Positions 18,600 to 43,134 of a stretch of 64,000 nucleotides of DNA are shown one piece after another. Source of the DNA: an uncultured Poribacteria bacterium. Lineage in GTDB: Bacteria; Poribacteria; WGA-4E; WGA-3G. The notes under the pieces were generated by a model. It was not told where the DNA came from, did not search any database, and saw nothing but the letters and a program-made list of their open reading frames with translations. The position numbers were made by a program, and so were the translations under genes. The stretch spans positions 620,001 through 684,000 of the forward strand of contig OX638316.1 of NCBI GenBank assembly GCA_951812525.1, written 5' to 3'. How positions within the stretch are numbered: position 1 is the first letter of the stretch; every line of letters begins with the position of its first letter.

Positions 18600-19661
18600 A
18601 TGAAGGACACCAAACATCGTGTAGCCATCATCGGCTGCGGACGGATGGGGCAAAACTATGCAGAGGCATACACCACCTATCCCGACACAGAAATCGTTGC
18701 GATCGTTGATGCCAATGCAGAACGTCGAGATGTCCTCGGCACGCGGTTCGGAGTCGGCGCACTCTACTCAGATGTCGAAGCACTATTGAAGGACATCGTG
18801 CCAGACATCGCCGTGGTCGTTACACCCACGAAATATATGAAAGATGTCGTCATCGCCTGTGCTGAAGCCGGTATTAAAGGTATCTCCACGGAGAAACCGA
18901 TCGCCGCACGCCTCGAAGATGCCGACGCAATGGTTGAAGCGTGTAGTGAACGAGGTGTGGTATTTGCTGGAGGCAACCTACAACGCGCAATGAACGAGGT
19001 ACAAGAAGCGGCATCTCGGCTCCACAACGGCGAATTCGGAAATATCAGAGGTGTGAGCGTCCACGGATTTGGCGGTGAAATCTCCGGTGGTGGATGCCAA
19101 CATATCTCCGTCCTACGACTGTTTACCAACGCCGAAGTTGAAGAGGTAATAACGTGGGGTACACCGCCAGAAGCCCTAAATGCAGAAACCGATGAAGGTT
19201 TAATTATCAACGGACACTTTCAACTCACCAACGGGCTTGAATGTAATGTCTTCGGAACGCCCACGTCGTGTCGCGGTGTAGACATCTGGACAGATGAATG
19301 CCTCGTCCGCTGGGACTGGAACCCTCCAGAGATCTTCAAAGGCTACGACCAGAGCGGCAATCGTATCCGAATTGAGCCCAACTATAGTCCATATCCGTGG
19401 AGCGAATACAGTTACCTCACCGGTTCAATCCGCTCTTTTTTAGCTGCCGTTGCTGGTGATGGACATCCATGGATTACCGGTGCTGATCTCCGACAAGCAC
19501 TGGAAATTGCAATCGCTGCAAAACTCTCCGCAACTCGGAACAGTACTCCCATCAAACTACCGTTAGAGGACAGATCCTTAGCACTTTACCCGCGTCCGTA
19601 CCGATGGCTCGGAGGGGACGTAACCGGTAGACCGCAAAGCGTTGAAGAAGCAAGGGCATAA
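18600..19661 (+). CDS. Gfo/Idh/MocA family oxidoreductase 1
   Basis: A 353-residue NAD(P)-dependent sugar or cyclitol dehydrogenase-type protein. It has the Rossmann motif AIIGCGRMGQNYAEAY, VDAN at the end of strand 2, VVVTPTKYM, and the catalytic-lysine motif STEKPIA (Lys ~100). The C-terminal alpha/beta domain has GGGCQHISVLRL, in which His is kept at the usual catalytic position but the family's Asp before it is not. First gene of the cluster; it has its own promoter and AGGGG 9 nt before ATG. The PhyH gene follows after 62 bp. Substrate unknown. Confidence 0.85.
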   Translation: MKDTKHRVAIIGCGRMGQNYAEAYTTYPDTEIVAIVDANAERRDVLGTRFGVGALYSDVEALLKDIVPDIAVVVTPTKYMKDVVIACAEAGIKGISTEKPIAARLEDADAMVEACSERGVVFAGGNLQRAMNEVQEAASRLHNGEFGNIRGVSVHGFGGEISGGGCQHISVLRLFTNAEVEEVITWGTPPEALNAETDEGLIINGHFQLTNGLECNVFGTPTSCRGVDIWTDECLVRWDWNPPEIFKGYDQSGNRIRIEPNYSPYPWSEYSYLTGSIRSFLAAVAGDGHPWITGADLRQALEIAIAAKLSATRNSTPIKLPLEDRSLALYPRPYRWLGGDVTGRPQSVEEARA

Positions 19662-19723: not shown

Positions 19724-20512
19724 ATGAACGAAGATCAAAAATATCTATTCGATTTGACCGGATACCTCATCGTCGAGAATGCTTTGACAGCCGAAGAAGT
19801 TGCAGAATGCAACGCCGCTATCGATCACCACATTGAGGGACTTAGGGAACGCGACAGTTCTCTGGCAGGCGATTCAGCCGCACTTTCAGGCACAGCACAC
19901 CGGATGGATATGGGTGGCATGCTGGCATGGGAGAAGCCTTGGTGTGAAACGTTTCGCAACCTCCTTGTGCATTCCAACGTTCAACCCCACCTCGAAGAGA
20001 TCTTGGGAGAAAAATACCGACTCGACCACGGTCCCGGATTAATCGCTATGGAAAAAGGCACGGAAGGTGGAACATTACACGGTGGTGGGATTGAACGCCC
20101 TAATTTCTCTGAAGCCTATTTTTTCAAATACGGACGCATATACACAGGTTTGACTGTCGTTGAATACATGCTCGCTGACGAAGGTCCTGGCGATGGCGGG
20201 TTAGCTATCATACCCGGAAGCCACAAGGCAAATCTCCCCTGTCCAAGTAGTATGAAACGGTACGAACAATATCAGAAACATGTTGTCGAGGTCAACGCCA
20301 AAGCGGGTGATGCCGTAATTTTCACTGAAACACTGACGCACGGCACCCTTCCATGGAAGGGAAACCATCAGCGCCGGGCACTCCTCTATAAATTCAGTCC
20401 TGGATTCCAATCTTACGGCACAGGTGCGCATCAAATCACATACCCCGATTACATTGAGGACATGTCCCCTGAACAGCGAGAAGTCATGGAGGCACCTCAC
20501 ATCCGACGCTAA
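19724..20512 (+). CDS. PhyH-fold oxygenase with HxG instead of HxD
   Basis: A 262-residue phytanoyl-CoA dioxygenase (PhyH)-like protein of the Fe(II)/2-oxoglutarate superfamily. The family core is clear: LFDLTGYLIVENALTAEEV at the start, then DEGPGDGGLAIIPGSHKAN, AGDAVIFTETLTHGTLPW (distal His) and the 2-oxoglutarate-binding Arg in HQRRALL. At the place of the proximal HxD metal ligands the protein reads H119-G120-G121, so the carboxylate ligand is missing. This is seen in Fe/2OG halogenases, but also in a set of uncharacterised PhyH homologues. Three other PhyH proteins in this window keep HxD. AGGAG lies before the start. Confidence 0.82.
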   Translation: MNEDQKYLFDLTGYLIVENALTAEEVAECNAAIDHHIEGLRERDSSLAGDSAALSGTAHRMDMGGMLAWEKPWCETFRNLLVHSNVQPHLEEILGEKYRLDHGPGLIAMEKGTEGGTLHGGGIERPNFSEAYFFKYGRIYTGLTVVEYMLADEGPGDGGLAIIPGSHKANLPCPSSMKRYEQYQKHVVEVNAKAGDAVIFTETLTHGTLPWKGNHQRRALLYKFSPGFQSYGTGAHQITYPDYIEDMSPEQREVMEAPHIRR

Positions 20513-20629
20513 ATTGTAGGCACAATTATCTAACGCGACTTTACTGGTGAGACTCCCAACCTCGTAACCTTGAATGTCTGTAGGGATAATCTCCAAACCT
20601 CAACACTGCATCTGTTGAAGGAGAAAACC

Positions 20630-21577
20630 ATGTCAAATCTACGAGTTGCCGTCATCGGCTGCGGCGGCAGAGGTCGCGGCCACATGAAAATCCTTTCAGA
20701 ATTTGATGACACAACCCTTGTCGCTGTCTGTGACCCAGTCGAAGCATCACGCAATAACGCTGGGGAAATGTACAATGTCTCAGCACGCTATGAGAGTATC
20801 GAAGCATTACTGGACAGTGAAACCTTAGACGCCATCTTCGTCGCCACACCTGCACACCTCAACGGTGAAGCGGCACTTCCCTGCTTTGAACAGGGTATCC
20901 ACACACTCTTAGAAAAGCCTCCCGGTATGAGCGTTGCAGAAACAGTTGCGTTGCGCGATACCGCAGAACGGACAGGTGCGAAAGGGATGGTAGGTTGGAA
21001 TCGCCGATTCCACCCGATTATCGTCGAGGCGAAACGGCAAGTTACCGCGCGCGGACCGGTCACACAAATCGTTGGAGAATTCCACAAGAGCATAACGCAA
21101 TTGGCACGAGGTGGCAAATTCCCTGAACACCTGATGGACAACATGTTTTTGGAGACCCCCATCCATGCCCTCGATGCCATCCGCGCCATCGCCGAAGCCG
21201 AGGTCCAAGAAGTCCATAGCGTCGTTCAACGGACAATTTCCGACTACAAGGATGTTCACGCCGCACTTATCCTCTTTGATAACGGCTGCGTTGCCCAACA
21301 CATCGCGAACTACACCACCAATGCACGGCTTGAACGCTACGAGATTCACGGCAGAGACATCTCCGCCTATCTTGAGGGTGTCTCCCAAGGCACCGTTTTT
21401 TGCGATGGTAACCAACACAAACTTACTAATGCAGGCACCAGCGGCACCGTTGAGCAAAACAGGTATTTTCTCGATTGCGTCAAATCCGATACGCCTGTTT
21501 CGTTCCCGGCTGCCAACCTTGATGAGGCTGTTAAAACCATGGAACTCTGCGAAGCAATCCTAAGTGGACTGCGCTAA
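20630..21577 (+). CDS. Gfo/Idh/MocA family oxidoreductase 2
   Basis: A 315-residue protein with the Rossmann motif AVIGCGGRGRGHMKIL, CDPVE at strand 2 end, FVATPAHLN, the catalytic LLEKPPG (Lys ~94) and a C-terminal domain with FLETPIHALDAIRAI, the counterpart of the family's D-x-G-x-H-x2-D block. ATG 20630 was chosen for the AAGGAG just upstream; a longer in-frame reading back to 20570 lacks one. It lies between two PhyH genes and is probably co-transcribed with them. The Rossmann motif GCGGRGRGH differs from that of the other two copies in the cluster, so the three are not recent duplicates. Confidence 0.87.
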   Translation: MSNLRVAVIGCGGRGRGHMKILSEFDDTTLVAVCDPVEASRNNAGEMYNVSARYESIEALLDSETLDAIFVATPAHLNGEAALPCFEQGIHTLLEKPPGMSVAETVALRDTAERTGAKGMVGWNRRFHPIIVEAKRQVTARGPVTQIVGEFHKSITQLARGGKFPEHLMDNMFLETPIHALDAIRAIAEAEVQEVHSVVQRTISDYKDVHAALILFDNGCVAQHIANYTTNARLERYEIHGRDISAYLEGVSQGTVFCDGNQHKLTNAGTSGTVEQNRYFLDCVKSDTPVSFPAANLDEAVKTMELCEAILSGLR

Positions 21578-21598: not shown

Positions 21599-22423
21599 AT
21601 GCCAACACTAAATGAACGTTTTGAAGCGTACAAAAAAGACGGATTCACAGTCTTTGAGAAGGTGTTTGATGAACCGCAAATGCAAAGTTGGCGGGAGAAG
21701 CATACAGAACTCTCCGCAGCTAACAATGGGCAGACATGGTTCGGAAATACACTTGAACTCGTGCCCGAACTAATGTGGCCCGCTGTCTCACATCCCACGA
21801 TCCTTGGGTTTGTAGAGAAGGTGATGGGACCTTTTGTGCAATTAGACAATCTCACGCTAGCGGCGTTTCCGTCCATGGAAAAAGCAAAGGCGGAAGGTAG
21901 AGTCTCTGGCTGGCATCGTGACCGATGGGCACACGTTCCGTACACCGACGCGTATCACCGTCCAAACGCCATTAACGCTATCTCTTATCTGCAAGATTTG
22001 ACAGATGAATTCGGACCCCTACGCGTCATTGTCGGTTCGCATCGTAAGCCAATTACGATGGCAGACACGGATCGCGCAAAACCGCATCCTGACGAAACCC
22101 TTATCCACATGAAAGCCGGTGATGTCGTCATTACACATAATGGACTTATTCACTCGGGTACACCGAATACCTCTGGACAGTTACGCTACTTCTTCAGTAT
22201 CTATTATAACCTGACTTGGCTGAAACACACCGATCATCACACGGGTCCGCACACACAAAAACTGATCGAAGCGGCGAAAGCCGTCAATAATCACCAACAC
22301 ATGCGACTCCTCGGTGTGGATGAACAACTTCAACCTCGATGCAACTCCGGTTTCCTCCACTCCGATGAAGAACGATGGGAAGAATGGGCAACCGCCGACC
22401 GGGAAGCAATAAAGGAAGCATAA
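21599..22423 (+). CDS. PhyH family dioxygenase 2
   Basis: A 274-residue Fe(II)/2-oxoglutarate oxygenase. It has the proximal metal motif WHRD (H106, D108), a SYLQDLTDEFGPLRVIVGSHRKP core, a distal His in ITHNGLIHSGTPN and the 2-oxoglutarate-binding Arg in SGQLRYFF. The C-terminus contains a long His-rich region (KHTDHHTGPHTQK). All catalytic residues are present, so oxidative activity is likely; the substrate is unknown. It starts 21 bp after the Gfo/Idh gene and ends 3 bp before the next PhyH gene, so the three are one operon. Confidence 0.88.
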   Translation: MPTLNERFEAYKKDGFTVFEKVFDEPQMQSWREKHTELSAANNGQTWFGNTLELVPELMWPAVSHPTILGFVEKVMGPFVQLDNLTLAAFPSMEKAKAEGRVSGWHRDRWAHVPYTDAYHRPNAINAISYLQDLTDEFGPLRVIVGSHRKPITMADTDRAKPHPDETLIHMKAGDVVITHNGLIHSGTPNTSGQLRYFFSIYYNLTWLKHTDHHTGPHTQKLIEAAKAVNNHQHMRLLGVDEQLQPRCNSGFLHSDEERWEEWATADREAIKEA

Positions 22424-22426
22424 CCG

Positions 22427-23173
22427 ATGGCAAATCCGAGCGTAGTACCACCAACCCTCAATGTCGAATTGGATCACCAACTGCAACAAGAGGTCAACTT
22501 TTTCCTCAACTGGGGCTATCTCATCGTCGATAACGCCGCAACACCAGAGCAGATTGAGTCCTTGCGAAATGCTCTCGATGAAAGCTACGAGCGCAACGAC
22601 AAAAGCCAATTCATCGGTGAACTGCTTGAAGAAGACGACCGGTTCGCATTTTTACTCGACAATCCCCCCGTTCTAAAGCGGATGGAAGCCATACTGGGTA
22701 CATGTGTACAACTTCACAGCGCGACGGCACGGATCACCGAACCCGGAACGCCCGACCAGAACTGGCATCGCGACGGACCCTGGCCCATAGCACCACACGG
22801 TACACCTTACGGAAGCCTCCCGGCGCAGATTAACTGTGGGTACTATCTCGACGAAGTTACAGATGAGACCGGTCCGACGGTCATCCAACCCGGTAGCCAT
22901 AGGGCACCGTTCCGACCACCTCCAAGCCCCGTCGAACTTCCAGACGAAAAACGGGTGCTCGTATCCCCAGGGCAAGCGGTCATGTTCGATGGATGGACGT
23001 GGCACCGAGGGGCTGCCAATATCTCCTCGCAACGCCGACGCGTCTGTCTCATGTGCTACCAAAACGCATGGATGAAATCCAGAGAACCTTTCGACGGTCC
23101 TCGCGTTACCAAACTCCGAGAGGAAGGCACGTCACAACAGAAACTCTTACTCGGCGCAATCCCAAAATGGTAA
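22427..23173 (+). CDS. PhyH family dioxygenase 3
   Basis: A 248-residue member of the same superfamily with NWHRDGPW (H114, D116), the core YYLDEVTDETGPTVIQPGSHRAPF, a distal His in FDGWTWHRGAANIS and Arg in SQRRRVCLM. It follows PhyH 2 with a 3-bp gap, a sign of translational coupling. Sequence similarity to PhyH 2 is limited to motifs, so the pair is not a recent duplication; they probably act on different substrates or steps. Confidence 0.88.
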   Translation: MANPSVVPPTLNVELDHQLQQEVNFFLNWGYLIVDNAATPEQIESLRNALDESYERNDKSQFIGELLEEDDRFAFLLDNPPVLKRMEAILGTCVQLHSATARITEPGTPDQNWHRDGPWPIAPHGTPYGSLPAQINCGYYLDEVTDETGPTVIQPGSHRAPFRPPPSPVELPDEKRVLVSPGQAVMFDGWTWHRGAANISSQRRRVCLMCYQNAWMKSREPFDGPRVTKLREEGTSQQKLLLGAIPKW

Positions 23174-23278: not shown

Positions 23279-24733
23279 ATGAACCTTGCTTATATCGTTA
23301 TTGATACACTCCGCTACGACTACATCGGCGCAAATGGGAATGATTGGATAGAAACCCCTAATATCGATCGGTTTGCTTCCAAAGCCTTGGCGTTCGACTA
23401 CACCTTCTGCGCCAGTTTCCCGACTATTCCGTACCGAACGGATGTCATCACCGGACAATACGGTGCCCCGATTCATCCGTGGAAACCGCTCCGCCACGAA
23501 CGTCAGACACTGCCGTGGACGCTCGCAGAGAACGGCTATGCCACCCAACTCATTCACGATACACCACATCTCGTCAACGGTGGACATAACTTCGACTGGC
23601 CCTTCCACGCCTGGACATTCGTTAGGGGTGCAGAAGTTGATAGAGATTGGATTAGCGATACTGTAAAATGGCCCGATAACTGGGCACGCCAATCACTCTT
23701 TGATTGTATCGATGACAAAGCCGCCGAATCAGGTATGCTCCGCAGCTACGCGCGCGCCAACCGAAATCGCAAAAATCCCGAAGACTGGAACTGCGCAAGA
23801 CTTTTCAACACCGCTGCACAATTCCTCAAAGATAACGCCAAGCGAGACAATTTCTTTCTCTGGGTAGATTGCTTCGACCCACATGAACCTTGGGACGCTC
23901 CCCTTGAATTCATGAAAAAATACGATACCCGTCCGGGTTACGACGGTCGCGTTGATCCCCGTAGTCTCGGTGCCCGCGGCAACGCTGAACTCTCAGACGA
24001 AGCGAAACAGCATATCAAAGCACAATACGCCGCTAAAACCACATGGATGGATCACTGCTTCGGACAATTCCTTGACGCACTCGAATCCACGGGGCTTGAC
24101 AAAAACACTGCTGTCATCTTTACCGCTGACCACGGCACCAATGTCGGTGAGCGCGGTAGATTTGGCAAAGGACAACCCGTTCGTCAGCAGGAAGCACACG
24201 TCCCGCTCTTCATCCGACTCCCAGAAGGCGATACAGGCAGAAGCAACGTCATCGTTCAACCACAGGATTTCTTCCCGACGATCCTCAACATCTTGGGCGA
24301 GGAACGTCCCGACGGGATCGAAGGACACGACATAGTAACGCCTGCACGCAATGGCGGATCCGGCGAAAGGGAACTCGCGCTTTCAGGCGGAAGCATAGAA
24401 CGGTGGGAGAACACCGCGGAAAATCCGAACATTAACCTCTTCACAATCTTTGACCGTGAGTGGAGCTTAGAGGTCGGCACGAAACCTGAGAATTCAAAGC
24501 TCGTTCGACTCGGCGAATTAGAGGATGTTTCCACTGAACACCCGGATGTCGTCGCGAGACTGCACGCCGCCGCAGTTGATGAAATCGAACGCCGCGGCAC
24601 AGATCCTGCAGTCATGGCATGGCTCCGTAGCGGTGGCGAAACCGCCTTTCCTGCCGATGCTAACTTATGGAACGGCTACCCTGGACCCGCTGGTTACCGT
24701 CCGTACTTCGGAAAACTCTATACTGGTGAGTAA
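23279..24733 (+). CDS. Sulfatase-fold hydrolase with Thr at the nucleophile position
   Basis: A 484-residue protein of the alkaline phosphatase/sulfatase superfamily. It shows IVIDTLRYDY (metal Asp), TPNIDRFAS, WVDCFDPHEPWDAP, FTADHGTNVGERG (metal Asp-His) and GKGQPVRQQEAHVPLFIRLP. Where sulfatases carry C/S-x-P-x-R, this protein reads T49-I-P-Y-R53, so formylglycine conversion is not possible. Thr is the nucleophile in some phosphodiesterases and phosphonate hydrolases of the fold, so a phosphate, phosphonate or other ester may be the substrate. No signal peptide: likely cytoplasmic. ATG 23279 follows AGGAAA; a GTG frame extension exists. It is the sixth gene of the Gfo/Idh-PhyH cluster. Confidence 0.85.
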   Translation: MNLAYIVIDTLRYDYIGANGNDWIETPNIDRFASKALAFDYTFCASFPTIPYRTDVITGQYGAPIHPWKPLRHERQTLPWTLAENGYATQLIHDTPHLVNGGHNFDWPFHAWTFVRGAEVDRDWISDTVKWPDNWARQSLFDCIDDKAAESGMLRSYARANRNRKNPEDWNCARLFNTAAQFLKDNAKRDNFFLWVDCFDPHEPWDAPLEFMKKYDTRPGYDGRVDPRSLGARGNAELSDEAKQHIKAQYAAKTTWMDHCFGQFLDALESTGLDKNTAVIFTADHGTNVGERGRFGKGQPVRQQEAHVPLFIRLPEGDTGRSNVIVQPQDFFPTILNILGEERPDGIEGHDIVTPARNGGSGERELALSGGSIERWENTAENPNINLFTIFDREWSLEVGTKPENSKLVRLGELEDVSTEHPDVVARLHAAAVDEIERRGTDPAVMAWLRSGGETAFPADANLWNGYPGPAGYRPYFGKLYTGE

Positions 24734-24926: not shown

Positions 24927-25976
24927 ATGCCACGCACATACAAAGCCTGTCTCATCGGGTGCGGACGGATGGGCGCAACCATCGACGACGAAGTTGAAGG
25001 CCGCGACGATAGTTTTATTTGGCAACCCTTCTCACACGCCGCTGCAGCAGTCGCATGTGAGCGAACAGACCTCGTCGCTGTCTCGGATGTCTTCGCCGAA
25101 AAAGCCGAAACCATCAGGCAACGCTACGGAGCCGAGCGCGCCTATACCGACTATGAAGAGATGATCGAAAAAGAGAAACCCGACATCGTCTGTATCGCTA
25201 CGCGTCCAGGTCCACACGCCGATATGACCGTCTTCGCTGCCGAGAACAACGTCAAAGGCATCTACTGTGAAAAACCGCTCTGTTGCTCCATGGAAGAGGC
25301 AGACATCATGGTAGATATTGTCCAAAAGCACGGTGTCAAGTTCAACTACGGGACGCAGCGTCGCTACATGCCGATCTATCGTAAAGTGCGTGAACTCGTC
25401 GATGGAGGCGAAATTGGTAGGGTTCTATGCTCCATCGCACAATACGGCGCAGGTTCCGCACTCTGGGGTTTGACCCACGCCGCCGATATGCTCCTTTTCC
25501 TCGCTGGTGATCCAGAGGTGGACTTTGTGCAAGGCGCGATTATCTGCGATGATTCAGATTGGGACGGTAATCGCCTCAACGCTGATCCCGGTATCGCCTG
25601 TGGTTACATCCGGTACGCCAATGGTGTCCACGGCTACAACACCGCAGGTACTGGACCCGAATACGAAGTCTGCGGCACCGAGGGTAAAATCCGCATTCAG
25701 AACAACAGCCGAGAAATCCAGTTCCGAAAAAAGGATGGCTCCTTCTTTGAAGAAGTACCGTTCCCAGAAACATCTCGTGCCACTGGTACTGTCATGGGTA
25801 TTACTGACATCGCCGAAGCACTTGATGAGGACCGCGAAACCAAGGGACCTGTGCATCTCGCGCGCCGTAGCCTAGAGACACTCATGGGTATGATTGAATC
25901 ACATCGACTCGGCGGCAAGCACATTTCACTTCCGATGGAAAATCGGAGCCTTTACGTTACCAGAGATAACTGGTAA
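24927..25976 (+). CDS. Gfo/Idh/MocA family oxidoreductase 3
   Basis: A 349-residue protein with Rossmann motif LIGCGRMGATIDDE, SDVFAEKAE, CIATRPGPH, catalytic IYCEKPLC (Lys ~116) and the C-terminal SALWGLTHAADMLLFL (His-x2-Asp). The insertion between the first strand and the next (EVEGRDDSFIWQPFSHAAA) differs from the other two copies. AGGAGAAAAC precedes ATG. It is transcribed from its own promoter, separated from the sulfatase-like gene by 190 bp. Substrate unknown. Confidence 0.87.
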   Translation: MPRTYKACLIGCGRMGATIDDEVEGRDDSFIWQPFSHAAAAVACERTDLVAVSDVFAEKAETIRQRYGAERAYTDYEEMIEKEKPDIVCIATRPGPHADMTVFAAENNVKGIYCEKPLCCSMEEADIMVDIVQKHGVKFNYGTQRRYMPIYRKVRELVDGGEIGRVLCSIAQYGAGSALWGLTHAADMLLFLAGDPEVDFVQGAIICDDSDWDGNRLNADPGIACGYIRYANGVHGYNTAGTGPEYEVCGTEGKIRIQNNSREIQFRKKDGSFFEEVPFPETSRATGTVMGITDIAEALDEDRETKGPVHLARRSLETLMGMIESHRLGGKHISLPMENRSLYVTRDNW

Positions 25977-34576: not shown

Positions 34577-37500
34577 ATGACAGAAGAGTCAATTCACGTC
34601 CAAGGTGCGCGAGAACACAACTTAAGAAACGTAGATATCCAGCTTCCAAAAGACAAGCTCATTGTCTTTACTGGTGTTAGTGGTTCTGGCAAATCCTCAT
34701 TGGCGATTGATACCGTCTATGCCGAAGGACAGCGGCGATACATCGAATCTTTATCCGCATACGCACGGCAATTTCTAGGGCAACTTGGAAAACCGGATGT
34801 AGATGAGATCGTCGGATTATCCCCCTCTATTGCTATTAGTCAAGGTTCAACAGGACATAACCCACGTTCTACTGTTGCTACCGTAACCGAGATCTACGAC
34901 TATTTGCGCGTGCTTTATGCCCGTGCCGGACAATTCCACTGCCCCGAATGCGGAAGTGAAGTCGGTTCACAAAGCCCCTCGGATATTATCAAGACTCTGC
35001 TCAACTATCCGCAACGCACAAGACTCATCATCTTGGCACCGATTGCCAGAGGTTCTCGTGGCGCGCACGAAAAAGAAATCGATGATCTACGAAACGCAGG
35101 TTTTGCTCGGCTGCGGGTCGATGGCGAAATATACGAACTTCGTCCAGGCTTTGCCCTTAACCCGAACCAGCGTCACGATATCGACCTCGTCATCGACCGG
35201 ATTATCATCAAAGACGGCATTGAGCCACGCCTCACCGAATCAGTCAACAACGCACTCACTCGTGGTGATGGGAGTATGCTCGTCCAAATCGTTCCAACCG
35301 AAGGTGAGTTATCTCCATTCGTATCAGAAGAAGATGACCTGCTCTTTAGTCAAGACTATACCTGTTCGCACTGCCGGATTAGTTTCGTGAAACCAGAACC
35401 GCGTCATTTCTCTTTCAATAACCCCGACGGAATGTGCGAAAGTTGCAGAGGCTTAGGAACACAGATGGGGATTCTACCGAAGTTGATTATCCGAGATGAC
35501 ACCCTCTCCATCATGCAAGGTGCTATCAGCCTATGGGGACCGCTCGATAAATCAGAACGCATCAGAGAAAAATCCATAGTCGAAGCACTCGCAAAACACC
35601 TCGGATTTGACATTGAGACACCTTGGCAAAACCTCACACCAGAGCAACAGCACGCTATCCTATACGGTACCGGCGATGCCATCCTTACAATCAACACACC
35701 TAAGACAAGTACATCCAAGAGAGGAAAACAAAGACGACGGTATCGTGCTCGCTTTCACGGTATCATTCCAGCTGAAGAACAGAAGTATTACTTCGACGAA
35801 GACGATGAAACCGATGAAGAAGATCTCCCCGATTACTTTGTAAAGATGCCTTGCAGGACGTGTGAGGGGACCCGACTCAACCCGTGGATAAAAGCTGTGA
35901 CCATAGCCGATACACCCATCACGGACATTCTCGAAATGTCTATTCAGGATGCCACACAATTCTATACCGAGTTGGAACTTCCAGAACGCGAGGCGTTCAT
36001 AGCACAGGAACTTTTAAAGGAGATCAGGGGACGACTCGGATTCCTCATGGATGTGGGATTAGGATACTTGACGCTGGCGCGTCCCGCACCGACCCTCTCC
36101 GGCGGCGAAGCGCAGCGGATCCGCCTCGCCAGTCAGGTGGGAGCCGGGCTACGCGATGTCACTTACGTTCTCGATGAACCGAGCATCGGTCTACATCCAC
36201 GCGACCACGCTGGGCTTCTCACAACCCTCCTAAACCTACGAAATCAAGGCAACACTGTCATCGTCGTTGAACACGATGAAGCGACCATGCTCGTAGCTGA
36301 TTGGCTCATCGATTTTGGACCGGGTGCAGGCATCAAGGGTGGCAAAGTGACCGGTATGGGAACACCGGCGCAATTCATGAAAGAGAGCGACACCCTCACT
36401 GCCCAATACCTCCGCGGCGATAAGGTGATCGTTCAACCAGAATCACGTCGTGCTACAGGTGAGAGATGGGTGCAAATCTGCAACGCACGCCAAAACAACC
36501 TCAAAGGGATTAACCCCAAAATACCGCTCGGTACTCTCTGTTGTGTGACCGGTGTGAGCGGTTCTGGAAAGAGTTCCTTAATCCACGATATTCTTTACAA
36601 TGCACTCGCGCGGGATCTCATGAAGGCTAAAACCGTGCCGGGAGCGTACGACAAAATCCAAGGCGTTATCAAAGAAGAAAACGTGCCAGTACCCGATGTC
36701 ATTGATAAAATTATTAACATTAACATGGCACCCATTGGACGGACACCGCGTTCCAACGCTGCAACCTATACAAAGGTTTTTGATGACATTCGGGCACTCT
36801 ATGCCAACATGCCCGATGCGAAACTGCGAGGCTATAAACCTGGCCGGTTTAGCTTCAACGTCAGTAGTGGCAGATGTGAAGCATGCAGCGGCAACGGCGC
36901 GAAAAAAGTTGATATGGGACTGCTCTCTGATGTCTGGGTCGAGTGTGAGGTGTGCAACGGGAAACGCTTCAACAGTGAAACCCTTGCCATTAAATATAAA
37001 GGAAAAAATATTTCTGAAGTCCTCGAAATGGATATCGGTACTGCGCTCGCACATTTCGCCGATATTCCAAGAGTCGCAAGAGGATTACGACTACTCCACG
37101 ATGTCGGTCTGGATTACATCAAACTTGGGCAACCAGCACCTACGCTCTCCGGTGGTGAAGCACAACGCATTAAACTCTCAAAGGAACTCTCTAAACGGAG
37201 TACCGGTAAGACCCTTTACATCCTCGATGAACCGACAACGGGGTTGCATTTTGACGATGTAAATAAACTGTTGACGATTCTTCATCGACTCGTAGACGAT
37301 GGGAACACCGTCGTCGTCGTAGAACATAACCTTGAGGTTATCAATTCCGCAGATTATATTATCGATTTAGGACCAGAGGGAGGCGTTGGTGGTGGCACCA
37401 TTGTCGCCGAAGGCACGCCTGAACAGATTGCTAAGCTGCCCGAATCTTACACCGGACAAGCACTCCGAGGCGATTTCGATATCTGGCGTGACGCAAAGCA

Positions 37501-40330
37501 ACGGCTCAAGGAACCCGATCTTGCCTACGTCCTTGGACAAGAACAAGAAAGACGAACAGCCATCGTAGTACAAGGTGCTACGGAAAACAACCTCAAAAAC
37601 GTGGACATTGATATTCCCCATCGCAAGATGACGGCGTTGACAGGTGTCAGCGGCTCTGGAAAGACTTCTCTCGCGCTTGATACGATTTACGCCGAAGGGC
37701 AACGCCGTTATATTGAAACGCTCAGTACCTATGCGCGTCAGTTTATAGGGCAGATGGAAAAACCTAAAGTCTCAAAGATTGAAGGGCTTTCACCCGCCAT
37801 CGCAATCTCGCATGCAAACGCCGGTCAAAACCCACGCTCAACGGTCGCAACGATTACAGAAATACATGACGGACTCCGCACGCTTTACGCCAGATGGGGC
37901 AAACCCTACTGTCCCGATTGCCACGAAGAGGTCCAACCCCAGACTGCGGAACAGATAACACAACACGCTTTTGAACTCGCCCCCCAAAAAAGAGTGGATG
38001 TCCTCGCCCCTCTTACAAACTTTTTGCTTGTTCCGGCAAGTGAAACAGGTGTATCAAGAGGCAAGGTCATTGACATTAACGCCAGTGAATCCGCTTACGG
38101 TTTGAAACCAAACGAAGACTACAACGATGTATTCCGACGCTTGCAAAGGGCAGGATTCGTGCGCGTCCAAATTGATGGCGAAATTCATCGGATTGATGAA
38201 GTCCCCAAATTGAGCAGAGGGATTCAGCATGAAATCTTCATCGTCATAGATCGGATCGCACTTGCCGATGAAGAGAAGAGCCGGTTTACCGAAGCGGTGG
38301 AATTGGCACTCCTACAAAGCGGCGGGTTTGTACTTATTGAAGAAAGCGAGCGCAGAGAAACACCTGTTCGACGTTTTTTCAGTGAACATGCGATGTGTCC
38401 TTCTTGCGGGAGCAACTTCGGGCAATTAACACCGCGCCACTTCTCCTTTAACAACAGAGTCGGGGCATGCGACTTCTGCGATGGGCGTGGAAGGAATATC
38501 CACCCGCCCTACGATGCTTGTAACCAATGCGACGGCACACGTCTGAAATCTTTTCCGAGCAGCGTTAAGTTTGAGGATACAACCATTGCTGAACTGATGG
38601 AGATGTCAATTACCGAAATCATTGAATTCTTCAATACCCGTCTGAAGGGGATCGAAACACAGGTTGTTTCTAACAATGCCGAGACGGACCGGAGTGAGAG
38701 TTTAATCGAAGCCGGTGTATCCACCTCAAGAGCCACGCATCCTGCACTCCACGTCCATACTTCACCTGAGTTTGAAGCAGAAGTGCTGCACCAAATCCAG
38801 ACACGGCTTCAATTTCTGGAAGATATCGGTCTCGGCTATCTCGCGCTCGAACGCGGGGCACCAACACTTTCCGGCGGCGAAATGCGCAGAATCCAACTCG
38901 CAAGCCAACTCGGCAGCGGTCTCACTGGCGTAACTTATATCCTCGACGAACCGAGCATTGGCTTACACCCACGCGACCAAGAACGCCTCATTTTTGCACT
39001 TCAGGAACTCCGCGACATCGGAAACAGCGTTCTCGTCGTTGAACACGACCGCGACACGATATTAGCTTCCGATCATGTGATTGATTTCGGTCCCCATGCA
39101 GGCAAAGGCGGCGGCGAAATCATCGCTGTCGGCACACCGGATACTTTCACGAATGGCGATCCTCCTATACAAAACACAGACAAAAACTTGTCCACGAAAT
39201 CCTTGACGCAAGCCTATCTTTCCAATGAAGTAGAGATTCCTGTCCCGAAAACTCGGCGCAAAGGTATAAATAAACGTCTCACACTATCCGGTGTAAAAAC
39301 GAACAACCTCAAGGACATCGATGTCAAGATCCCACTTGGAACACTCACCTGTGTAACCGGCGTTTCAGGGTGCGGAAAAAGTTCGCTCGTCGAAGGGACG
39401 CTAAAACCGGCACTTGAAAGTCGCAGTTCTATCAAAACCGGTGATCCGAAAGATCGACGCTATTCCTACTATTTCAGTGAGGGGCACCGAGAACCGATAT
39501 ATAACGACTACGGTTTACCGGAGTATAAAACCATCCGAGGTGTTAGTAATATCAAGCGACTCATCAACGTAGACCAGAAAGCAATCGGTGAGACCCCTCG
39601 TTCCAACCCGGCTACTTATACCGATCTATTCACGAAGATCCGCGAACTCTTCGCTGAACAACACGATGCAAAAATGCGCGGATTTACTATGGGGACCTTC
39701 AGTTTCAATCTCGCTTCCGGGCAGTGTCATATATGCGAAGGGCACCGTTTCAACCGCGTCGAGATGCATTTTCTCCCTGATGTATGGATGCCGTGTGAGG
39801 CGTGTAATAGTACAGGCTACAACCAAGACACGCTTGAGATCCGTTATAAAGGCAAAAACATCGCTGAAGTCTTAGATATGACGGTAGATGAGGCACTCAC
39901 ATTCTTCAGCGAAAGTTCCCGGATTTGTAGAACACTCCAAATGTTAGCAGACGTCGGATTGGGCTATATCCAATTAGGGCAATCTGCAACGACCCTCTCT
40001 GGTGGCGAGGCGCAACGCGTCAAGCTTGCTAAAGAGTTGGCGCGCCGCCAAACGGGTTCAACGCTCTATATCATGGACGAACCGACAACAGGTCTCCACT
40101 TTGACGACATCCAGAAACTCCTCAAGGTACTGAACCGCCTCGTCGATGCAGGTAATACGATCATCGCCGTCGAACACAATCTCGACGTTATCAAATCTGC
40201 TGACTGGATCATCGATTTGGGACCAGAAGGTAGTAAAGGTGGCGGAGAAATCGTTGCGATGGGTACACCAGAGGATGTAGTGAAGGTTCAGAGATCCCAC
40301 ACCGCTCGTTTTCTACGTGAAATTCTGTAG
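34577..40330 (+). CDS. uvrA: Tandem (double-length) UvrA excinuclease subunit
   Basis: UvrA is the damage-recognising ATPase of nucleotide excision repair and normally has ~940 residues with two ABC ATPase modules. This one open frame encodes 1917 residues, with four Walker A motifs near residues 33, 659, 1022 (GVSGSGKS/T) and 1594 (GVSGCGKS) and four LSGGE signatures. Each half is a full UvrA: Walker A, zinc module CPEC or CPDC, second zinc module ([16 protein letters not shown]), ABC signature, second Walker A and third zinc module ([15 protein letters not shown]). The third signature is LSGGEMRR rather than LSGGEAQR. It would form an intramolecular pseudo-dimer. The stop codon lies within a dispersed repeat. 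Confidence 0.95.
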
Positions 40331-42372: not shown

Positions 42373-43134
42373 ATGGAAACGAAAAATGGACAACTCGCTG
42401 AACTTTACCGGAAAGACGGATTTTTAACCGGTATCCACATTTCCGATGAAACAGAAGCAACGCGCCATCGGCAAGCTTACAATGCATTAGAAGCAGAAGT
42501 CGGCAAAGAAACATGTGAAATCGGTCTCGTCGATTGGCATTTTGACTATCAATTTATCTGGGAGATCGCAACGGATCCGAAAATTGTGGACGTTATTGAG
42601 TCACTTATCGGTCCCGATGTTATGTTATTAGCGACCCATTTCTTCTGCAAATACGGACCGCGCGACAAGTTCGTCGCATGGCACCAAGATGTAACATACT
42701 GGGGACTTGAACCACCCGATGCCATTACAGCTTGGTATGCAATAGACGATAGCGATACAGGCAACGGTTGTATGCAGGTGATTCCGGGAAGCCATCAGCG
42801 CGGTATCCAAGAACACGGGAAAGCTGACAGGGCAGGGAATCTATTAAGCATCAATCAGGAAGTGCCTGTCACTGAAACGGAAGCCGAGAGTGCTGTTGAT
42901 CTGGTGTTGAAAGCGGGGGAGATGTCTATCCACCACGGACAGATGATCCACGGGAGTCTACCGAATCATTCTACCCGTCGGCGATGCGGTCTGACAGTTC
43001 GCTACATTGACCCATCCGTAAGACAGGCAGAAGCAAACTCATTGAAACGTCCATGGCGACCAATTCTACTGCGCGGTGAAGACCAGCACCAGAATTTCAC
43101 CACCGTGCCAAACCCTTTCCCATTGAACGGATAG
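42373..43134 (+). CDS. PhyH family dioxygenase 4
   Basis: A 253-residue Fe(II)/2-oxoglutarate oxygenase with AWHQDVTYW (H104, D106), the core AWYAIDDSDTGNGCMQVIPG, a distal His in HHGQMIHGSLPN and Arg in STRRRCGLTVR. All catalytic residues are intact. The IDDSDTGNGC phrase is typical of PhyH proteins from sponge-associated and soil bacteria. It starts 13 bp after the creatininase-family gene. Together with the amine oxidase downstream it may oxidise an N-methyl or betaine-like compound; that is inference. Confidence 0.88.
   Translation: METKNGQLAELYRKDGFLTGIHISDETEATRHRQAYNALEAEVGKETCEIGLVDWHFDYQFIWEIATDPKIVDVIESLIGPDVMLLATHFFCKYGPRDKFVAWHQDVTYWGLEPPDAITAWYAIDDSDTGNGCMQVIPGSHQRGIQEHGKADRAGNLLSINQEVPVTETEAESAVDLVLKAGEMSIHHGQMIHGSLPNHSTRRRCGLTVRYIDPSVRQAEANSLKRPWRPILLRGEDQHQNFTTVPNPFPLNG

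Follow-up and report, generated by a model that had tools for sequence, protein, structure and literature searches.

The PhyH-fold protein encoded at positions 19724-20512 of the window, a 64,000-nucleotide stretch (620001-684000) of a 5.06-Mb single-contig genome, carries H119-G-G in place of the canonical HxD/E motif of Fe(II)/2-oxoglutarate (2OG) oxygenases. Its relatives belong to Candidatus Poribacteria. With a probability of roughly two in three, it is an active, hydroxylase-type oxygenase similar to HygX, in which E202 replaces the missing aspartate either directly or through a water molecule. According to this proposal, H119 and H206 would bind the iron and R217 the tail of 2OG, while E202, four residues before H206 (the -4 position), would take over the carboxylate role. 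It may act as a direct ligand, or it may keep a water in place at the vacant site, which is what D721 does in human AspH. Glutamate is one carbon longer than aspartate, and E202 could reach the iron by itself. If E202 fills the role of the aspartate, no free halide site would be left. The relevant features are collected in the table.

Table. Features of the PhyH gene and its neighbours (positions within the window)
Feature	Position	Strand	Basis
Gfo/Idh/MocA sugar-type dehydrogenase, upstream neighbour	18600..19661	+	synteny
PhyH-fold Fe(II)/2OG oxygenase gene, HGG for HxD, 262 aa	19724..20512	+	ORF, Pfam PhyH
H119-G120-G121 codons: proximal His, Gly at expected Asp position	20078..20086	+	
E202 codon, acid at -4 from distal His; proposed HxD carboxylate replacement	20327..20329	+	covariation, conservation
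H206 codon, distal metal His (invariant)	20339..20341	+	
R217 codon, 2OG-binding Arg; present in 71/71 non-HxD relatives	20372..20374	+	
Gfo/Idh/MocA dehydrogenase, conserved next gene	20627..21577	+	synteny
PhyH protein, HRD (HxD kept), no -4 acid	21599..22423	+	
PhyH protein, HRD (HxD kept), no -4 acid	22427..23173	+	
Sulfatase (PF00884)	23279..24733	+	
Gfo/Idh/MocA dehydrogenase	24927..25976	+	

The protein matches Pfam PhyH (PF05721, E=5.6e-14), and this match, together with a predicted structure that resembles solved Fe/2OG oxygenases, indicates the double-stranded beta-helix fold. The glycine run H119-G120-G121-G122 is coded by 20078-20089. The first-pass annotation was correct in reading H119-G-G in place of HxD with the distal histidine (H206) and the 2OG arginine (R217) retained, as it was in stating that three other PhyH proteins of the window keep HxD (HRD at 21599, HRD at 22427 and HQD at 42373). 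The canonical enzymes PHYH, EctD and PHYHD1 share PF05721, the distal histidine and an arginine at about +11 with the window protein; however, they keep HxD, and PHYH and EctD have no acid at -4 in the alignments examined. Orthologues are present in most Poribacteria genomes of the same order. Forty-nine of them were aligned; identity is 71-95% in Poribacteria, and a single Gemmatimonadetes record stands at 51%. In the 50 sequences, window protein included, H119, G120, E202, H206 and R217 are invariant and G121 is conserved at 90% or more, so HGG is no chance substitution. E202 is likewise invariant in alignments A2 and A4.

The closest solved relative is HygX of Streptomyces hygroscopicus (PDB 4XC9, 4XCA, 4XCB, 4ZPI), which is the top match of the family profile in the PDB (E=6e-26). 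An AF2 model of the window protein (pLDDT 76, pTM 0.82, weakest in the HGG loop 118-130) also finds HygX first in a fold search (3.6e-16, TM about 0.65), including its iron-bound and nickel/2OG-bound entries. An earlier model made from close orthologues alone reached a pLDDT of 54 and was discarded, and alignment A3, which included HxD neighbours, had its HxD region misplaced and hence was not folded. HygX carries H102-G-G and E202-x3-H206, aligned to the motifs of the window protein, and its structures include iron-bound (4ZPI), nickel/2OG-bound (4XCA) and hygromycin-bound (4XCB) forms. Thus, the window protein shares with the HygX-like clade its closest solved structure, the pairing of HGG with E-x3-H and, as described below, its place in the tree. 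The two proteins are only about 20% identical, and their settings differ: HygX stands in secondary metabolism, where it is connected with hygromycin B, an aminoglycoside sugar, and with the oxidative cyclisation of a sugar to an orthoester, whereas the window protein is found among dehydrogenases and a sulfatase.

PhyH genes are abundant in this genome, with 143 matches to PF05721. It is already published that Poribacteria hold many PhyH copies (PMC3909097); no published description of their ligand variants was found. From these matches, 145 PhyH domains were extracted and aligned, and both histidines are present in 142, of which 118 have HxD and 24, the window protein among them, do not. An acid at -4 is found in 20 of the 24 non-HxD domains and in 7 of the 118 HxD domains (Fisher p=7e-15, which, like the later p-value, ignores shared descent). 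The other positions between -1 and -7 gave no comparable signal, and among the acidic columns tested, that of E202 was the best discriminator after the HxD column itself. Two other candidates for the replacement ligand were rejected: D101 does not occur in the HCA group or in HygX, and D10, which is situated in the N-terminal FDxxG segment, is common in HxD proteins too. The ligand variants of the genome include HCA, HNG, HGS, HMH, HQH, HSH and HVV. There is also a two-domain PhyH protein (L007/L009, G000:C1:3044997-3046454), whose first domain is devoid of both metal histidines (DGG...TLQG) and whose second domain keeps them, with the aspartate displaced by one position (MDGGCTH).

The same pairing was seen in a wider set of relatives, taken from other Poribacteria as well as the phylum of genome G085 and thinned at 80% identity to 100 rows after degenerate rows were dropped. 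In this set, 67 of the 71 non-HxD rows carry an acid in the E202 column, as against 2 of the 29 HxD rows (p=6e-18). The acid is glutamate in 63 rows and aspartate in four. It was suggested in the first-pass annotation that the HxG proteins might form a differently liganded group, and the way in which the -4 acid tracks the loss of the aspartate supports this. A carboxylate coming from elsewhere had been named there as an argument against halogenation. That point is nearly reached: in the sequences, the acid accompanies the loss of the aspartate, and a contact with the metal is what we infer from them.

How E202 might work is best illustrated by human AspH, which has an HxG...H iron site with only two histidine ligands, the carboxylate site being filled by a water that D721 holds (PMC13168262, PMC6817910, PMC10947486). 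D721 lies four residues before H725, with its carboxylate 2.9 A from the metal-bound water (PMC13168262), and the D721A variant is much less active (PMC13168262, PMC6817910). AspH does not halogenate (PMC13168262, PMC6817910), presumably since halides are kept out by the water that D721 holds (PMC13168262, PMC6817910, PMC10947486). The window protein has the same arrangement of HxG...H with an acid at -4, E202/H206 corresponding to D721/H725. AspH is nevertheless of another family, with an aspartate that works through water and a protein substrate. The alternative that E202 is never a direct ligand and that the enzyme is a two-histidine hydroxylase of this kind forms one arm of our preferred reading. 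Taken alone, it is rather unlikely, though it is the strongest of the rivals. The identical offset speaks for it, as do the four non-HxD rows with aspartate in the E202 column and the FIH variant D201G, which is still active with two histidines (PMC6817910). On the other hand, 63 of 71 rows carry glutamate and not the shorter aspartate, which suits direct ligation better, and AspH lies outside the HygX-like clade.

A tree was built without the trait columns, that is, the HxD and -4 positions. Nearly all non-HxD rows fall together with HygX in a single 80-row clade (SH-aLRT at least 95), within which the exact position of HygX is unsure. As most of the covariation lies in one clade, shared descent accounts for much of the association between the two acids. 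There are about four changes per trait on the tree, and the independent pairs (2 concordant, 0 discordant) are too few for significance. It is in this respect that a second rival gains some ground, according to which E202 binds the substrate without compensating for the aspartate, and the two traits are linked by descent only. The coexistence of HxD and glutamate in two rows, g3703275m and L219, also favours it. Yet a 24-row subclade (100% support) provides the most telling evidence for replacement, since the acids trade places within it: FHGG/FTEALCH and FHAA/FTEALYH members have the glutamate without the aspartate, and HRD members (LHRD/FSSRLMH and FHRD/FSTNLLH) have the aspartate without the glutamate. 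Further, a PhyH protein on a long branch outside the main clade (L231 670-1470) has HSG with an aspartate at -4 and may have undergone this replacement independently, and in AspH the -4 acid serves the metal site of an HxG enzyme of a different family. The substrate-binding role is thus improbable, though it deserves some weight.

A fourth group of the same subclade, HGGHKG...LPNTRHAG, has neither acid, and its close orthologues are found in about 36 genomes. The conservation of this group without either acid means that the -4 glutamate is not absolutely required. The group, with the pattern HGGHKG / FLPN[TLI]RHAG, comprises G000:C1:2118549-2119364 (L289) and the orthologues L290-L318 of about 36 Poribacteria, and its genes stand in tandem with an HRD paralogue. 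Judging by its motifs, it may be the better candidate for an open, halogenase-like site, the best seen in this analysis.

HxG or HxA is commonly taken as a signature of halogenases. The first-pass annotation had accordingly considered that the window protein might be a Fe/2OG halogenase of the SyrB2/WelO5 type, in which the vacant aspartate site takes up chloride or bromide and an aliphatic carbon is chlorinated. The H119-G-G motif fits this pattern, the host lives in seawater sponges, and the family profile also reaches SyrB2 (E=1e-10) and CytC3 (7e-07) as distant relatives in fold. Both have a PhyH-like fold with HQA for HxD and, as in the window protein, the distal histidine and the arginine. 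However, they are distant in sequence, act on carrier-protein substrates and have an open halide site with serine at -4, precisely where 67 of 71 non-HxD relatives carry an acid. A halogenase is expected to have no acid near the vacated site; in the window protein, E202 occupies the -4 position in sequence and is invariant. The model of chlorinating enzymes TIGR01762, which covers the SyrB2 type only, gave E=0.072 and 12.4 bits over 36 residues against a cut-off of 226.3, and nothing in the genome exceeded that cut-off. The gene tree of HxG and HxD proteins that had been called for groups nearly all non-HxD members with HygX, in a clade where no halogenase of known activity was found. Together with the HxG site of the non-halogenating AspH (PMC6817910, PMC13168262), these results make halogenation by the window protein quite improbable. 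In the same window, the PhyH protein at 42373-43134 scores 4.5e-22 and 78.7 bits with TIGR01762, under the 226-bit cut-off; its HQD is intact, and it is therefore a hydroxylase-type relative of SyrB2. Least probable of all is a catalytically dead paralogue that lost its ligand, in line with the inactive group once mooted, because although some paralogues lack both histidines (g426153p and the first domain of g3044835p), H119, E202, H206 and R217 stay unchanged across 51-95% identity and HygX, whose motifs are the same, has been crystallised with iron as well as with 2OG.

The gene order offers a hint about the substrate of the proposed HygX-like oxygenase. In the nearest genera, the genes that come after the PhyH gene code for a Gfo/Idh/MocA dehydrogenase, two PhyH proteins with HxD and a sulfatase, and distant orthologues have BNR, Gfo/Idh/MocA, epimerase or ThuA genes nearby. 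Working next to the Gfo/Idh/MocA dehydrogenases and the sulfatase, the window protein probably oxidises a carbohydrate (a sugar, cyclitol or glycoside). This is the best guess for two reasons only, the neighbouring genes and the action of HygX on a sugar. Elsewhere in the window, a 1917-aa ORF (34577-40330) consists of two UvrA proteins in one chain, for which NCBIfam has a similar double-length model (PRK00635).

Related genes are also present on IMG/VR contigs. The PhyH genes retrieved with the pattern GG[LF]xx[IVM]PGSHK, which is blind to the HxD and -4 motifs but may itself favour the HygX-like clade, all have [LI]HG[GL] and [TSP]E-x3-H. HygX-like genes of the HGG and glutamate type lie on the contigs L370-L374 (32-436 kb), which are listed as viral, and the L372 contig has two adjacent copies. 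A viral scan with alignment A1 gave no relative, the FTEALTHG DNA pattern matched unrelated frames only, and a second PGSHK pattern gave no further PhyH domain of usable length.

A broader proposal may tentatively be put forward, at somewhat less than even odds. In a large bacterial clade of PhyH proteins, along with some from IMG/VR, the carboxylate of the triad would have moved to a directly ligating glutamate in the order H...E-x3-H, and at least one subclade would have moved back. To our knowledge, this ligand order is not generally recognised for Fe/2OG enzymes. Should the authors of the HygX structures have already described E202 as ligating the metal, one member of the clade would be a known case of this mechanism, and the novelty would lie in the spread of the mechanism and in its exchange with HxD.

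In this genome, about two dozen proteins carry HxG or HxA and are probably something other than halogenases. If the replacement is true, the -4 acid would be enough, in sequence data alone, to tell hydroxylase-type HxG/HxA enzymes from true halogenases, and checking for it would reduce false halogenase predictions. The small HxG groups without this acid would then be the better halogenase candidates. In both the HygX-like PhyH enzymes and AspH, the same position would have taken over from a lost ligand.
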